DNA from: Clostridia bacterium
Lineage (GTDB): Bacteria > Bacillota > Clostridia > Lachnospirales > Lachnospiraceae
Assembly (NCBI GenBank): GCA_910574835.1
Contig: CAJTDE010000039.1
Span: 1-36,641 of the forward strand
Length of the DNA stretch: 36,641 nt
Reading direction: 5' to 3'
The notes below the pieces were generated by a model. That model was not told where the DNA came from, did not search any database, and saw only the letters and a program-made list of their open reading frames with translations. Position numbers and translations under genes: made by a program. Of this stretch, positions 3,122-26,324 are shown one piece after another. Within the stretch, counting starts at the first letter, position 1. The number at the start of each line of letters is the position of its first letter.

Positions 3122-3949
3122 TTAGGACAGTATCCTCTCAATCTCTGCGGCCACGCCTTCCTGCTCATTGCTCAGGGCTATCCGATCCGCTCCTTCTTTT
3201 GCCTCCGGACAGGCATTTTCCATAGCAAAGCCTGTTCCTGCCTCCAAAAGCATGGTGATGTCATTGCTTCCGTCTCCAAATGCTGCTGTTGCTTCACGCT
3301 CTATATTCAAATGTGTCCGAAGAAATCTCAAAGCCGCACCCTTGTTGGCCTCTTTTGCATTTACTTCAATGTTATTAGACACAGAGCTTGATACGGACAA
3401 CTCATGGAGCGACACCTTTATATCCTCCAGAACCCGCCTGCGCTCCTCAAGATCCGCAAAAAAGAGCATCAGCTTCTGTACCGTCTCTCCTGATTCCAAA
3501 AGATACTCCTTTAAATCCTCAACCGGAATGTAAATCCTGCGCATCATACGGAAAAGCGCCTGTTCCGAAGAGTATGCCTCCATTTTCTCCATGTCGCTTT
3601 TTCCCATATACGCTTTTCCGCCCTTGTAGCATCCGATGATAGCAGACACATTCTCAGCGGCAGTAAAGAAACGCAGCACCTCTTCCCTGTTCATCTCTTC
3701 CCGATGAAGTGTCTTTTTCTCCCAGGCATCATATACCTCCGCTCCGTTTGCTCCAATTACATAGCGGATAAAGGGCAGACTGCGTATCTCTTTTGGTACG
3801 CCGTCATACAGCCGCCCGGTGGTAGGGACCAAATGAATCCCGGCAGCAGCCGCCTTCCGAAGCGCCTCCAATGTCCGGGGCGTTACTTCCTTGTTATCCT
3901 TTAATAGCGTGCCGTCCAGATCAAAGGCAATCAATTTTATTTGTTTCAT
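3122..3949 (-). CDS. Cof-type HAD-IIB family phosphatase
   Basis: A 275-aa haloacid-dehalogenase hydrolase of the Cof subfamily, expected to dephosphorylate sugar phosphates, FMN or similar small molecules in the cytoplasm. Motif I is FDLDGTLL with catalytic D10 and D12. Motif II is around VPTTGR. The C-terminal Mg-binding motif is FGDGSNDITML, and a C2 cap lies between. The start at 3949 is supported by AGAGGAG; the longer frame upstream lacks a ribosome binding site. The leader carries the recurring GGGGATATACGGAACC motif (3971-3985). Substrate cannot be predicted. Confidence 0.9.
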   Translation of the reverse strand: MKQIKLIAFDLDGTLLKDNKEVTPRTLEALRKAAAAGIHLVPTTGRLYDGVPKEIRSLPFIRYVIGANGAEVYDAWEKKTLHREEMNREEVLRFFTAAENVSAIIGCYKGGKAYMGKSDMEKMEAYSSEQALFRMMRRIYIPVEDLKEYLLESGETVQKLMLFFADLEERRRVLEDIKVSLHELSVSSSVSNNIEVNAKEANKGAALRFLRTHLNIEREATAAFGDGSNDITMLLEAGTGFAMENACPEAKEGADRIALSNEQEGVAAEIERILS

Positions 3950-3975
3950 CTCTTCTCCTCTTCTCTTCCGGTTCC

Positions 3976-4003
3976 GTATATCCCCATTCAGCGTCCGGAT
4001 ATC
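3976..4003 (-). repeat. leader-motif hairpin before HAD gene
   Basis: On the minus strand GATATCC pairs with GGATATAC, and the 3' arm continues into ACGGAACCGGAA just before the AGAGGAG ribosome binding site of the HAD gene. This is one member of a motif family seen before several minus-strand genes (see findings). The hairpin itself is short. Confidence 0.35.
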
Positions 4004-4532: not shown

Positions 4533-4895
4533 TCAGTCCTCTTCGATATGCTCCCGCCCCTGGTCGATAATCGTCCGCACATGATTATCTGCCAGAGAGT
4601 AAAAAATGGACTTTCCCTCCCGTCTGCTCTTGACCAGCTTGCTCTGCTTTAAGATACGAAGCTGATGGGAAATGGCAGACTGGGTCATGCTCAAAGCCTC
4701 CGCCAGATCACAGACACAAACCTCCGCCTCAAAAAGCACAAACAGGATTCGGATTCTTGTGGAATCTCCGAAAACCTTGAAAAGCTCCGCCAGATCGTAA
4801 GCCTCCGTTTCTTCCGGCATTTTTTCCTGGACTATTTTTAAAAGATTTTCATGCACCTCAAAGGTGTCACAGCATCCCTCAATTTTCTCTGCCAT
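4533..4895 (-). CDS. ArsR/SmtB-family metal-sensing repressor (CadC/SmtB-like)
   Basis: A 120-aa winged-helix dimeric repressor that releases DNA when it binds Zn(II), Cd(II) or Pb(II). Two classical metal sites are visible. The alpha3N-type site has the N-terminal pair C8-C9 plus C60-V-C62-D63, equivalent to ELCVCD in CadC. The alpha5-type site is D103-x-H105-x10-H116-x2-E119, as in SmtB/CzrA. The recognition helix region is MTQSAISHQLRILK. It is encoded 90 nt downstream of the P-type ATPase and presumably autoregulates through the operator at 7158-7179. The start ATG at 4895 follows AAAGGAA and the recurring leader motif GGGGATATACGGAATTGGAATAG. Which metal is sensed in vivo cannot be told. 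Confidence 0.93.
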   Translation of the reverse strand: MAEKIEGCCDTFEVHENLLKIVQEKMPEETEAYDLAELFKVFGDSTRIRILFVLFEAEVCVCDLAEALSMTQSAISHQLRILKQSKLVKSRREGKSIFYSLADNHVRTIIDQGREHIEED

Positions 4896-4922
4896 TAAAT
4901 TATTCCTTTCTATTCCAATTCC

Positions 4923-4969
4923 GTATATCCCCTTTCTCCACCCAAGTATTCAGCCTCATAAGGATATAC
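4923..4969 (-). repeat. leader-motif hairpin before ArsR regulator
   Basis: Between the ATPase stop and the ArsR start, GTATATCC (minus strand, 4969-4962) pairs with GGATATAC (4930-4923), with extra TT/AA pairing. The 3' arm continues as GGAATTGGAATAG toward the ribosome binding site. It is a smaller relative of the 93-bp hairpins before the sigma factor and msmK genes. Confidence 0.45.
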
Positions 4970-4985
4970 TGTTTCCGGTTCCCTC

Positions 4986-9804: not shown

Positions 9805-10380
9805 TTATGTGTCTTTTGAAAATGCTGGTTGAGGATGCTGGAGCTGTGGGGCGGCTCTGTGATCTCCGATGAGTTTTTCCATCCAGATCATGTCGTACCA
9901 GCGGCCGAATTTGTAACCGCATTTGTGGAATTGTCCTGCCTTTGTATAGCCTAAATGTTCATGAAACTCTGCGCTGTTTTTTGTCAGGTATTCGTCGGGG
10001 ACTTCCGGATAGCCGATGCAGGCATAGAGATTTTGGATGCCGCTTTCAGCCAGGGCTTCCTCCAGTGCCTTATATAGCTTTTTTCCGATTCCTTGTTTTC
10101 TTTTCTTTGGGGCCAGATAGATGGTTAGCTCTGCCGACCAGTCATAAGCTGCTCGTCCCACAAAGGGGCCGGCGTATGCGTAGCCTAGGATCTCATTGTC
10201 TTTGACTGCGGTAAGATATGGGTATTTTTTTAAGGTATTGGTCATCCGCCTTTTAAATTCCTCTATGGTTGGCACTTCATATTCAAAGGAAATGGCGGTA
10301 TTTTTTACATAATATTCGTAGATATGTAAAAGAGCTTTTGCGTCCCTGAGGCTCGCTGTTCTGATTTCTACTTCACTCAT
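9805..10380 (-). CDS. GNAT acetyltransferase, phosphinothricin-acetyltransferase-like
   Basis: A 191-aa N-acetyltransferase of the Pat/YwnH type. Landmarks are IRTASLRDAKALLHIY at the N-terminus, the segment ISFEYEVPTIEEF, the acetyl-CoA loop KKRKQGIGKKLYKAL and the C-terminal HKCGYKFGRWYDMIWMEK. Relatives acetylate phosphinothricin or methionine sulfoximine; the natural substrate here is unknown. The start ATG follows CAGGAGATCAGCTT. The C-terminal 15 or so residues (after the usual end at IWMEK) are an unusual extension. A diverged copy of the 93-bp hairpin repeat lies 50 nt upstream. Confidence 0.88.
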   Translation of the reverse strand: MSEVEIRTASLRDAKALLHIYEYYVKNTAISFEYEVPTIEEFKRRMTNTLKKYPYLTAVKDNEILGYAYAGPFVGRAAYDWSAELTIYLAPKKRKQGIGKKLYKALEEALAESGIQNLYACIGYPEVPDEYLTKNSAEFHEHLGYTKAGQFHKCGYKFGRWYDMIWMEKLIGDHRAAPQLQHPQPAFSKDT

Positions 10381-10430
10381 AAGCTGATCTCCTGATATTC
10401 ATTTCTGTAAATTTTCCTTTTTATAATTTT

Positions 10431-10510
10431 TCCTTTTTAATGTAGCTTTACAAAATTAATTTTCTGTCACAAGTGCATATGCCTATTAGTTGATTTGTGC
10501 ATTGCAAGGA
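10431..10510 (-). repeat. diverged copy of 93-bp hairpin leader repeat
   Basis: On the minus strand this segment carries TGCAATGCACAAATC, a loop region similar to the other copies (GCATATG, then TTGTGACAG) and AAATTAATTTTGTAAAG, which corresponds to the inner 3' arm and the 7-nt bulge of the copies at 14167-14259 and 18786-18878. The outer stem has decayed: TCCTT/AAGGA and AATG/CATT still pair. Like the others it precedes a minus-strand gene. The surrounding spacer 10381-10606 shows no coding sequence. Confidence 0.6.
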
Positions 10511-10606
10511 TGAACAACTTCATTAGTGCTTTGTCACGGACAATTCTCCGGGAAACAACTCGGCCGTTTTTTAACTGACTTGCTATGCACTTTACAAACT
10601 TTATAC

Positions 10607-12348: not shown

Positions 12349-12583
12349 GTAACCGTTCAGACGGGCTGTGGCGAAAGCCGCTCTCTGACTTTTCCTATAT
12401 TCAGTGTCCGGCTGTTCGCGTACAATTTGTTTGATATGGACGGACATTGCCTCACCCCGCACCGGGTAAAAAATCAAAAAAGCAATGTCCGTTCAGAGCA
12501 GACAAAGTGTACGCGAACCGTCCGAACACAGGATATGGAAAAGTCAGAGAGCGGCTTTCGCCACAGCCCGTCTGAACGGTTAC
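12349..12583. repeat. long palindromic element, copy 1
   Basis: A 235-bp inverted repeat with arms of about 103 bp and a loop of about 30 nt. The outer 47 bp of the arms (starting GTAACCGTTCAGACGG) are identical and the inner parts are about 75-80% identical, ending at GGACATTGC beside the loop. Read outward, each arm carries an open frame beginning ATGTCCGT and encoding KSQRAAFATARLNG. It starts 8 nt after the DUF2461 stop codon, so it could act as a very large terminator hairpin, but no U-tract follows. A related element lies at 25021-25225. No transposase is encoded. It accounts for most of the 12200-12590 gap. Confidence 0.85.
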
Positions 12584-13289: not shown

Positions 13290-14141
13290 TTACGCATTTT
13301 TGATAACTGAAAACTGTGCGGAAGCTAAAAGCTCCTGCACAAGACGCTTCATTTGCTCCGGCGACTGATAAGCCTTGCAGAAGGAAAAATCCTGGGACAA
13401 ATCGTCCATTTCCTCCATTGCCTGCTTCACATCAAGCATGGTTTTAACGGAAATCTCATTGGCCTCCACATAATCTAACTGCTGCGGATGCAGCCTGCGG
13501 CTTTGGATTGCATAATTCACCCTGTCTTTGCACCGGCAGCTTCCGCCGCCGTATGCTCCGCAATACTGCTGCAGAAAATCCGCCATTTTCCGGCGTATTC
13601 TGGATAACCGCTGGCGATATGCTTCCGGCGTCATTTCTAAGATCTCTCCGGCAATGCGACTGTCCAGCTTAAACATAGTTCCCAATATAAAAATACATCT
13701 GCTCTCCGTGTCCAGACACTGCAGCATTACATTGGTACAGGACAGCTTCAATTCCTCCGCTAAAATGTCTCTTTCCACATTCTGCGTTAGATCAGGGATG
13801 TCATGTATTTTCCCATTTTTAATATCCTCGCCGTAAAATTCGAAGCTTAAGGGCGCGTGGGCAAACATATGCTTTTTATAATCCTTCAAATGATTCACGG
13901 CAATGCGGAAAACCCATGTGGTAAACGCGCTTTCCCCTCGAAAAGAAGATAAATGTGTAATCATTTTCAGCAGAATGTCCTGTGCCGCATCCTCTGCATC
14001 CGCAAAAGTTCCAAGCATACGCAGGGATAAATTAAACACCATGTCCTGTACGCCCATAACAAGGGATTCAAGAGCCTCTTTGTCCCCGGATGTGGCCTTG
14101 TCCGCCAATGCCTGTAGTTCTTCATTTGTTTTTTTCTCCAA
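13290..14141 (-). CDS. ECF-like RNA polymerase sigma factor with Cys-containing C-terminal extension
   Basis: A 283-aa sigma-70-family protein. Region 2 spans about residues 28-95 (FADAEDAAQDILLKM, then FTTWVFRIAVN) and region 4 about 130-190 (RIAGEILEMTPEAYRQRLSR). A C-terminal extension of about 90 residues follows, opening with C194-x7-C202-R-C204-K, which may bind metal or sense redox state. Extended ECF groups use such tails for self-regulation; no cognate anti-sigma factor is adjacent. The start is a TTG at 14141, seven nt after GGAGGG. The 93-bp hairpin repeat (14167-14259) lies directly before the ribosome binding site. Promoter targets are unknown. Confidence 0.88.
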   Translation of the reverse strand: MEKKTNEELQALADKATSGDKEALESLVMGVQDMVFNLSLRMLGTFADAEDAAQDILLKMITHLSSFRGESAFTTWVFRIAVNHLKDYKKHMFAHAPLSFEFYGEDIKNGKIHDIPDLTQNVERDILAEELKLSCTNVMLQCLDTESRCIFILGTMFKLDSRIAGEILEMTPEAYRQRLSRIRRKMADFLQQYCGAYGGGSCRCKDRVNYAIQSRRLHPQQLDYVEANEISVKTMLDVKQAMEEMDDLSQDFSFCKAYQSPEQMKRLVQELLASAQFSVIKNA

Positions 14142-14166
14142 CTGCTTTCCCTCCTATTCCAGTTCC

Positions 14167-14259
14167 GTAATATCCCTTACAATACACCTGTACAAAATCA
14201 ATTTCCACTCACAGAACCATATACCTGCAAATCGATTTGTGCATTGTAAAAAATATCAC
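14167..14259 (-). repeat. 93-bp structured hairpin leader repeat, copy A
   Basis: Read on the minus strand: a 21-bp lower stem (GTGATATTTTTTAC.. with ..GTAAGGGATATTAC, fully paired if G-T is allowed), a 10-bp upper stem (AAATCGATTT/AAATTGATTT), a 7-nt bulge on the 3' side only (TGTACAG) and a 24-nt loop. The 3' end runs into CGGAACTGGAATAGGAGGG, the ribosome binding site of the sigma-factor gene. Copy B at 18786-18878 has the same length and architecture with compensatory changes in the stem. A partial direct repeat of the exit sequence (GGATATTATGGAACTT) lies about 20 nt upstream of the stem. Confidence 0.85.
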
Positions 14260-14445
14260 TGTTTAAAAGTTCCATAATATCCTGCAAGTACAAAATACTA
14301 CTATTTAATTAGACATCCCATTTTCGTCTCTGTGACATCATTTCATTATTTTTTATATTATCTTAATATCAGTCATTTATCAAATAACAATTCCCTGAAT
14401 TTTTTATTACCGGCTATCTTTTTCCCCTTCCATACAGTTATAGTA

Positions 14446-17649: not shown

Positions 17650-18759
17650 TTAATGAGCAATTGCTTTCTCCGTCTCTTTGTCAAATACGTGGATCTTATC
17701 CGTATCCAGCACAAAATCAACTACGTCTCCCTCACGGGCCGCCGTGCCGGAGCTTACTCTTGCGGTCATCTGGGTTCCGCACATATCAAAGTACAGATAA
17801 ACCTCAGCGCCCAAAAGCTCGTAAACATTTACAGTTCCCTTTACTACGGCCTGATTTTTCGCTCTTGTAGTTGCCGGATCGCTTACATCCTCGGGACGGA
17901 TGCCCATCACAACCTGTTTTCCCTTGTAGCCGCCGTCAATGAGCTTCTTGCCCTTTTCTGCGGTAAGGGGAACACGGTAATCTCCGGCCTTCAGGAATAC
18001 ATTTCCTCCCTCTGCCTCGCAGACAGCATCAATGAAATTCATCTGAGGAGAGCCGATAAAGCCTGCAACAAAGAGATTATCTGGCTCGTTGTATAAGGTC
18101 TGGGGGCTTGCAATCTGCTGAACCACGCCGTCCTTCATAACAACGATTCTTGTTCCCAGAGTCATGGCCTCGGTCTGGTCATGAGTTACATAGATAATGG
18201 TAGCGCCCAGTCTCTGATGCAGCTTGGAAATCTCAGTACGCATCTGTACACGCAGCTTGGCGTCCAGGTTGGAAAGAGGCTCATCCATCAGGAATACCTT
18301 GGGGTTGCGCACAATGGCACGGCCCATCGCAACACGCTGACGCTGTCCGCCGGAGAGCGCTCTCGGCTTCCGGTCCAGAAGCTTCTCCAGATCCAGGATT
18401 CTTGCCGCCTCCTGTACCTTTTTGTCAATCTCCTCCTTGGGCGTTTTCTTAATCTTCAGGCCGAATGCCATATTGTCCCTTACGGTCATATGGGGATACA
18501 GCGCGTAGCTCTGGAATACCATTGCGATATCACGGTCCTTAGGCTCCACATCGTTCATCAGCTGTCCGTCAATCTTGAACTCGCCGGAGGAAATGCTCTC
18601 CAGACCTGCCACCATGCGCAGAGTTGTGGACTTTCCGCAGCCGGAGGGTCCTACGAAAATGATAAATTCCTTATCCTCGATCTCCAGGTTGAAATCCTTT
18701 ACAGCCTCATATCCGTTGGGGTATCTCTTGTAAATATTCTTTAATGATAAACTCGCCAT
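17650..18759 (-). CDS. msmK: multiple-sugar ABC transporter ATPase (MsmK/UgpC)
   Basis: A 369-aa ATP-binding subunit of CUT1-type carbohydrate importers. Walker [10 protein letters not shown] (37-45), Q-loop in [10 protein letters not shown], signature LSGGQ (135-139), Walker B VFLMDE (155-160), and the C-terminal TOBE/regulatory domain of MalK-like ATPases (GIRPEDV). One such ATPase often energises several sugar importers in Firmicutes; here the obvious partner is MsmEFG upstream. It is separated from the permease cluster by 222 nt that contain the 93-bp hairpin repeat. ATG at 18759, preceded by TAGGAGG. Confidence 0.95.
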
Positions 18760-18785
18760 TACTCTTACCTCCTATTTTAAGTTCC

Positions 18786-18878
18786 GTAATCTCCCTCACA
18801 ATACACCCTCATGAAATCAATTTCCAGCCACAAAAGCATGTGTCTGTAAATCGATTTGTGCATTGTGAGGGAGATTAC
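18786..18878 (-). repeat. 93-bp structured hairpin leader repeat, copy B
   Basis: On the minus strand GTAATCTCCCTCACAATGCAC pairs along 21 bp with the 3' arm GTGTATTGTGAGGGAG... (one G-T pair). Inside come the 10-bp stem AAATCGATTT/AAATTGATTT, a 7-nt 3' bulge (CATGAGG) and a 24-nt loop. The 3' arm continues as CGGAACTTAAAATAGGAGG, the msmK ribosome binding site. Compared with copy A, two C-G pairs are replaced by A-T and T-A pairs and three C-G pairs by T-G, which keeps the stem intact. Confidence 0.88.
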
Positions 18879-18981
18879 TGTAATAATTTATTGTTTATTA
18901 GAATGATTACATATGTTTCTCTAGTCTGTCTCTAAACACGTTTTACAACCAATTGTCCGGCGCCCGCCGCGCCGATTCCGC

Positions 18982-25020: not shown

Positions 25021-25225
25021 GCTGAGACAAAATAAAACTGCCTTCTGTTCCGATTATTACGTATCCGGTTGTTCTCGCACAGGCTGCCTGCTCCGGGCAG
25101 ACAGTGCCCAAAACCTTAATACCTCCAAAAAAAGTCCAAGGCAATGTCTGTTCGGAGCAGGCAGCCTGTACGAGAACCCTCTGAACGCGGATACGGAAAC
25201 AGCGGCTGATTTATTTTGCGTCAGC
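25021..25225. repeat. long palindromic element, copy 2
   Basis: A 205-bp imperfect inverted repeat with arms of about 90 bp around a 30-nt loop. The outer ends pair as GCTGAGACAAAATAAA with its near-complement at 25210-25225. The inner part carries GGCTGCCTGCTCC and ends at GACATTGCC beside the loop. The inner half resembles copy 1 (12349-12583): both right arms read outward as ATGTC(C/T)GTTC(A/G)GAGCAG followed by GTACG(C/A)GAACC. It lies in the msmE/msmR divergent region, downstream of the presumed msmR promoter, so it may be transcribed into the msmR leader. Confidence 0.8.
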
Positions 25226-26217: not shown

Positions 26218-26226
26218 CTATCAAGG

Positions 26227-26290
26227 AAGCGGAAAATAAAACAACAGGAATGTATATTCAAAGACAAACCTGCTATTTTATTTTCCGCTT
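26227..26290. terminator. bidirectional terminator between msmR and HD gene
   Basis: AAGCGGAAAATAAAA..CAGG pairs with CCTG..TTTTATTTTCCGCTT over about 19 bp with a 20-nt loop, between two converging genes. The arms supply T-rich exits on the plus strand (TATTTTATTTT within the stem) and on the minus strand. Confidence 0.65.
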
Positions 26291-26324
26291 CTTCAAAATC
26301 TGCTTTAAATGCATCAAATCTCTT

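Follow-up and report, generated by a model that had tools for sequence, protein, structure and literature searches.

The hairpin repeat found in a 36,641-nucleotide stretch of Lachnospiraceae DNA (the window) belongs to a dispersed family, here called family 1. Its fold is conserved with a bias towards the sense strand, and its position is locked to the Shine-Dalgarno sequence (SD) of a downstream gene. Folding leaves the SD open, and between relatives units are gained, lost, stacked and replaced. We consider it moderately likely that family 1 is an RNA module that acts in cis on the downstream cistron and spreads as an SD-proximal cassette.

Both complete family-1 units of the window lie on the minus strand. 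The first (14160..14262) is 103 nt long and consists of an ACA head, the hairpin proper (14167-14259) and a GGAACTG tail, and it scores 77.0 bits with the R2 model. The SD stretch GAATAGGAGG and a spacer (14142..14159, minus strand) place it 18 nt from the TTG start of a gene (13290..14141, minus strand) that has a Pfam match to sigma-70 region 2 of 49.3 bits. The gene had been labelled an ECF sigma factor. The region 2 match agrees with the label, whereas region 4_2 lies below the Pfam cut-off (19.4 vs 25.7), making an ECF assignment likely, not proven. The second unit (18779..18881; hairpin 18786-18878) scores 119.2 bits with the covariance model. It is 19 nt from the ATG of a gene (17650..18759, minus strand) which the domain scan identifies as a MalK-type ABC transporter ATPase, the interval (18760..18778, minus strand) being occupied by the SD stretch AAAATAGGAGG and a spacer.

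Read on the minus strand, the two copies share one fold: an outer helix of 21 bp and an inner one of 10 bp, separated by a 7-nt bulge on the 3' side, with purine mismatches at the apex. The folding energies are -32.6 kcal/mol (z -6.66) for copy 1 and -50.8 kcal/mol (z -10.07) for copy 2, with no equally good fold among 200 shuffles of either. This confirms the two helices and the bulge given in the preliminary description, which was also correct, for the minus strand, in placing the bulge on the 3' side and the hairpin before the ribosome binding site. The stem changes that it reported, two double changes and three of C-G to T-G, are present, together with an additional pair changed from A-T to G-T. 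On the plus strand copy 1 folds weakly (-10.3 kcal/mol, z -2.05) because its wobble pairs turn into A-C there. Copy 2, the arms of which are nearly perfect, still folds strongly on that strand (-40.7 kcal/mol, z -9.30).

Partial copies, all on the minus strand, accompany the complete ones. The sequence ggatattatggaacttttaa at 14263..14282 is an apparent remnant, the 3' arm and tail of a preceding unit. A decayed third copy (10419..10520, 62% identity), in which the fold is lost (z 0.49), lies upstream of a GNAT acetyltransferase gene (9805-10380). Two tail-only copies, each with 3 substitutions, precede the start of an ArsR-type gene at 4895 (4907..4924) and an alternative start at 3949 (3960..3977). 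The former is overlapped by a weak R2 match at 4916-4972 (17.2 bits, E 0.057).

The window has other inverted sequences. Large nested palindromes at 12349-12583 (47-bp perfect arms, 44-nt inner pair) and 25071-25177 (38-nt arms) look like a further repeat family. Sequence resembling them was seen upstream of a gene in the relative G002; none was noted directly at an SD. Strong inverted repeats at 1713-1773 (25-nt arms, 96%) and 26226-26291 (28-nt arms, 86% complementarity) are possibly terminators.

Placement at Shine-Dalgarno sequences

The 5.0-Mb genome containing the window was searched with blastn and then with a covariance model built from 26 copies, the best 150 of 3047 candidates being scored. 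The search gave at least 113 sense-strand model matches and 4 partial blast matches, which form 83 arrays (55 single, 22 double and 6 triple). The stretches taken from this genome alone contain 117 sense units at E <=1e-7. A 797-kb sample of G002 contains 46 units, grouped in 38 arrays; this density may be high, as the sample consists of four large contigs chosen as known to hold matches.

Gene starts in all placement counts were set by simple scripts rather than by a gene finder. An array was scored as SD-associated when, 8-30 nt downstream of it, there was an SD-like core and a start codon that opens a frame of 50 codons or more. This is the case for 77 of the 83 arrays of the window's genome, with a median distance of 17 nt, and for 34 of 36 arrays in G002, two of the 38 at stretch ends being left out. 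In the opposite orientation none of 36 passes. The test is lenient, and 2469 of 40000 random points (6.2%) pass it; in a second control, 100 of 2937 random intergenic points were near a start. Both failing G002 arrays lead into copies of a second repeat family, which in turn ends at SDs; so do two (C7:35880 and C11:10550) of the six that fail in the window's genome. A covariance-model search of the host and its relatives, proposed in the preliminary description, thus finds many copies and maps nearly all of them just before start codons. Random placement with unpaired substitutions had been named beforehand as the pattern that would count against such an element. The opposite is seen, since placement is tied to the SD and to the strand, and substitutions mostly keep pairing.

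The family had been described as maintained in leaders. Many units do stand before genes, and the phrase is nevertheless too narrow: 44 of the 83 arrays begin within 60 nt after a co-directional stop codon. The same is true of 22 of the 38 arrays in G002, where 286 of 722 pairs of neighbouring genes run in the same direction no more than 60 nt apart. Many family-1 arrays are therefore probably inside operons. With about half of the arrays closely behind co-directional genes, the module goes with cistrons, not with promoters.

The downstream genes appear unrelated. The 81 script-chosen starts for the 83 arrays, at least two of which (C39:14160 and C9:91860) are in the wrong frame, show no common theme. 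From their N-termini we take the genes to include gltX, purA, recA, rnf, dapF, aroA, scpA and flagellar and chemotaxis genes. At C9:91860-97176 (L077), arrays of 1, 3, 3 and 1 units precede four genes of one cluster, presumably of the rnf type.

The second family, fam2, has a core of about 120 nt, often preceded by TCCAGCTAAGAAATG, and in G002 it ends in CGCAGCGACTTAGAA immediately 5' of TAGGAGG and a start codon. Among 27 copies read by eye, 18 terminate at an SD; the other 9 continue into a family-1 unit (6) or a further fam2 copy (3). Stretches L305, L312, L318 and L328 of G002 and L072 and L081 of the window's genome contain fam2 stacked with family 1; the two occur in either order, and the stacks examined end at an SD. 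A fam2 model finds 21 copies above 100 bits in the 797 kb of G002 and 6 in 60 of the 70 stretches from the window's genome, plus 2 in L305 of G002. It has no match in the window and none in 22 other loci (L121-L219, L368, L373), which are small and partly of the same genus. RNAalifold, given no structure, folds fam2 into CAC, a 15-bp inner stem, a 7-nt 3' bulge, GUG and an outer stem. The 7-nt 3' bulge at CAC/GUG between two helices is thus the same as in family 1, whereas the primary sequence is different (mean column identity of fam2 93%) and the family-1 apex is missing. About 54 SDs carry modules in the 797 kb of G002, against 734 crude gene calls, or roughly 7%.

Turnover and spread among relatives

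Seven of eight element-bearing congeners have one unit or a pair of units in the leader of the MalK gene, and the stems are of several kinds. The unit is absent in G002, despite 94% identity over the neighbouring 5 kb, and in G001, G009 and G015, relatives that have no matches to the first model. At the sigma gene a unit is present in the window's genome, G007 and G012, while G004, G005, G006 and G013 have a plain leader without it, and in G002 the second repeat family occupies the same slot.

For 21 of the 83 arrays a match was met in the G002 stretches, in two cases solely through a repeat. Of the remaining 19 sites, 12 carry a complete or partial unit in both genomes, often in different copy number; at the others G002 has the tail alone (2), the second family (1) or an empty site (4). 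The empty site at C11:63963 reads GAATAGGAATAGAGG, and its filled counterpart has an identical SD. The native SD is therefore retained, with the unit at its 5' border. AATAG or GGAA stands on both sides of the unit at two loci, where unit remnants confuse a reading as target duplication.

Orthologous units tend to retain pairing. In 7 pairs of units that have no more than 25 differences, pairing persists in both members at 24 changed pairs and does not at 10; this count leaves the repeat-based C11:10550 out of 11 pairs, and with it 30 are kept and 12 broken. Three pairs of units with more than 25 differences have 32 kept and 18 broken. The unit at C22:29580 differs at 32 of 103 positions within a flank that is 96.2% identical, a divergence that points to exchange.

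The first model has matches in 8 of 16 genomes of the genus. A ninth carrier, G011, found later, has one diverged unit. It sits before a gene (locus L379) which we take to be that of ribosomal protein S14. A broader model has matches in 9 of 397 sampled genomes of the family, compared with 6 of 397 for an earlier model. In a sample of 392 genomes of the order, many of them of the same family, the window's genome is the sole carrier found. Both surveys took the best ten candidates per genome through strict filters and are insensitive, so that absence from them is weak evidence. The carriers among the matches listed include Bacterium 1XD21-13 and Acetatifactor muris DSM 23669, both of them mouse-gut Lachnospiraceae. 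A blastn search of phage and plasmid records with one unit as query gave no match. Four viral contigs (L260-L263), and two contigs titled Oxalobacteraceae (L180) and Acidobacteria (L224), show the apex pattern with no model match at E <=1e-5, and these were taken as chance.

It is possible, if somewhat doubtful, that family 1 is a purely selfish mobile hairpin of the REP or MITE kind, which prefers the 5' border of an SD and has a fold that serves its own copying. The empty and filled sites, tandem copies, remnants and stem replacement all favour this, the rapid replacement at C22:29580 fits it, and so do the narrow spread and the slot shared with a second family. Against it, two candidate drivers do not track the element. 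Y1_Tnp was not found in 5 of 13 carriers (G004, G006, G007, G028 and G319, some of these genomes being incomplete) and was found in 3 of 8 genomes of the genus without first-model matches. A Y1 transposase as driver, as in a REP/RAYT system, was rejected because its presence does not track the element. RVT_1 was not found in 4 of the 13 (G006, G012, G028 and G212, again with some incomplete), and an origin from a retron or group II intron was rejected because reverse transcriptase does not track the element either. The lock to the SD and the sense strand demands an extra assumption of a selfish hairpin, and the retained pairing of orthologous copies also speaks against it.

Conservation of the fold and strand bias

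An alignment of 26 copies shows pairing in 96.1% of pair cells. Fifteen pairs have changed on both sides, compared with 4.2 in shuffles, a value reached by none of 500 shuffles, although the copies share ancestry and such tests overstate their independence. Sliding the pairing partner abolishes the covariation signal. Pairing fails at two base pairs of the outer helix, in 7 and 11 of the 26 copies.

The mismatches have a strand preference. In 111 distinct units of the window's genome, read on the sense strand, there are 266 G-U and 60 A-C pairs, and 143 and 55 when two mostly G-U pairs are excluded; the corresponding numbers in 73 distinct units of other loci, part of them from the same genus, are 128 and 26. 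The units were gathered with a sense-strand model, which may inflate G-U somewhat; in A3 and R2, 8 of 88 rows are antisense. Purine-purine mismatches in the 111 units outnumber pyrimidine-pyrimidine ones 203 to 26. The excess of G-U over A-C could also come from selection on single-stranded DNA of the sense strand.

The plan of the unit comprises a bulge of 7-8 nt after CAC/GUG, apex mismatches around CAG/CUG and a CGGNACU tail, followed by the SD. The bulge has 7 nt in 91 of the 111 units, and in 110 the 5' side has none. An A/G mismatch occupies the apex in 72 of these units and in 60 of the 73 from other loci. The second apex mismatch is mostly purine-purine (in the 111 units, G/A 49, A/G 41, GG 10 and AA 5). 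Stems differ strongly between genera; most copies retain GAUUUACAGAC...GGCUGGAAAUC, the bulge, the CAG head and the CGGNACU tail, and a few, for instance in G212 and G011, are without the apex words. Three outer-helix positions are often non-standard in the set of 73 (in 52, 34 and 57 units). The mismatches there are largely purine-purine, and a purine-rich internal loop seems to replace the outer-helix pairs.

The covariation might be a by-product at the DNA level, the arms of a palindrome being corrected by template switching without selection. Long, nearly perfect arms and the wholesale change of stems between species accord with such a process. It should, however, give perfect pairs and no strand preference. 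The G-U and purine mismatch excesses of the 111 units, and two mismatches that are mostly kept, one of them swapping G/A for A/G, make it very unlikely.

The tail is GGAACUG in 73 of the 111 units and is followed by the SD. In flagellin leaders, GGA motifs that overlap the SD are bound by CsrA, and the GGA motifs of the family-1 tail likewise overlap the SD. GGA recurs in GGAACTGGAATAGGAGG, and CsrA is present in 13 of the 13 first-found carriers as against 1 of 8 genomes of the genus without first-model matches. That family 1 is a CsrA-responsive leader is nonetheless highly improbable. CsrA occurs in 210 of the 397 family genomes, and the contrast within the genus may represent one clade. 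G284, a genome 77% complete with one clear unit match, has no CsrA match. Neither the first GGA, replaced in CGGTAC and CGGGAC, nor the second is fixed.

The hairpin does not close the SD. The unpaired probability from SD to start, averaged here over 75 arrays, is 0.557 with the hairpin, 0.542 without it and 0.515 with the hairpin shuffled. An RNA thermometer or SD-sequestering switch was rejected because predicted openness is not lowered, and an intrinsic terminator because no U-run follows the stem. Rfam 15 has no match in the window, and in seven loci at E <=0.5 it has just two miRNA matches, in L103, far under their gathering scores. A metabolite riboswitch, attenuator or intrinsic terminator, which the structure, the location before genes and the conserved unpaired parts would allow, is scarcely credible given the missing U-run, the unsequestered SD, the missing relevant Rfam match, the missing gene theme and the closeness of about half of the sites to a co-directional stop codon.

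Possible role and comparison with known systems

A cis-acting RNA or a mobile hairpin were the two interpretations offered in the preliminary description. The structure is conserved and the loci turn over, so that both halves seem true. If it works in cis as an RNA module for the cistron that follows, the hairpin would be transcribed as part of the mRNA, and a putative protein or ribonuclease would recognise it at the bulge and apex. Situated beside the initiating 30S subunit, it could determine how stable, or how strongly translated, that one cistron is, in operons as well as in leaders. Copies would reach new genes by exchange or by insertion at the 5' border of an SD. The position next to the 30S footprint, the closeness to upstream genes and the retained bulge and apex together suggest a factor-bound module, one that protects or tunes a single downstream cistron. 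More tentatively, there may be two or more families of modules with the CAC, 7-nt bulge and GUG core, which stack in sense at the 5' borders of SDs, share one dedicated factor and rewire single cistrons by moving.

If the cis-acting module is real, translation-start regions can serve as a landing zone for mobile RNA modules. The question raised is whether the modules adjust mRNA decay or initiation for individual genes. This can be tested in the carrier Acetatifactor muris DSM 23669, a culture-collection strain.

Dispersed palindromes are common in bacteria. The titles and abstract openings of the literature surveyed contain no description of an element such as family 1, a scope too narrow to claim that it is unpublished. 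The REP/REPIN elements, which are associated with RAYT Y1 transposases, are short imperfect hairpins with a conserved bulge, very many copies and a narrow spread. Family 1 is similar to them in its bulged hairpin, copy number and spread. REPs, however, are extragenic and are not known to be locked to the SD, and their partner is the RAYT Y1 transposase, whereas Y1_Tnp does not track family 1. The BOX elements of Streptococcus pneumoniae are dispersed, modular and hairpin-forming, with variable tandem copies and some effect on nearby genes. They are like family 1 in modularity and tandem copies, and are not known to be locked to the SD or the sense strand.

MITE, Correia and ERIC elements are non-coding palindromes that may be transcribed along with genes. 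Family 1 differs from these in having no consistent target duplication established and in its constant location no more than a few nucleotides from the SD. The leader of aprE in Bacillus subtilis is a 5' mRNA stabiliser, in which a hairpin beside a strong SD could shield against 5' decay. Stabilisers of the aprE type are single leaders, whereas family 1 is dispersed, has a conserved bulge and apex and is also found close behind upstream genes. No other palindrome is known to us that is placed so consistently, on the sense strand and at most a few nucleotides from the SD, before dozens of unrelated genes. The lock to the SD and the stacking of two families are the points in which family 1 is unusual.
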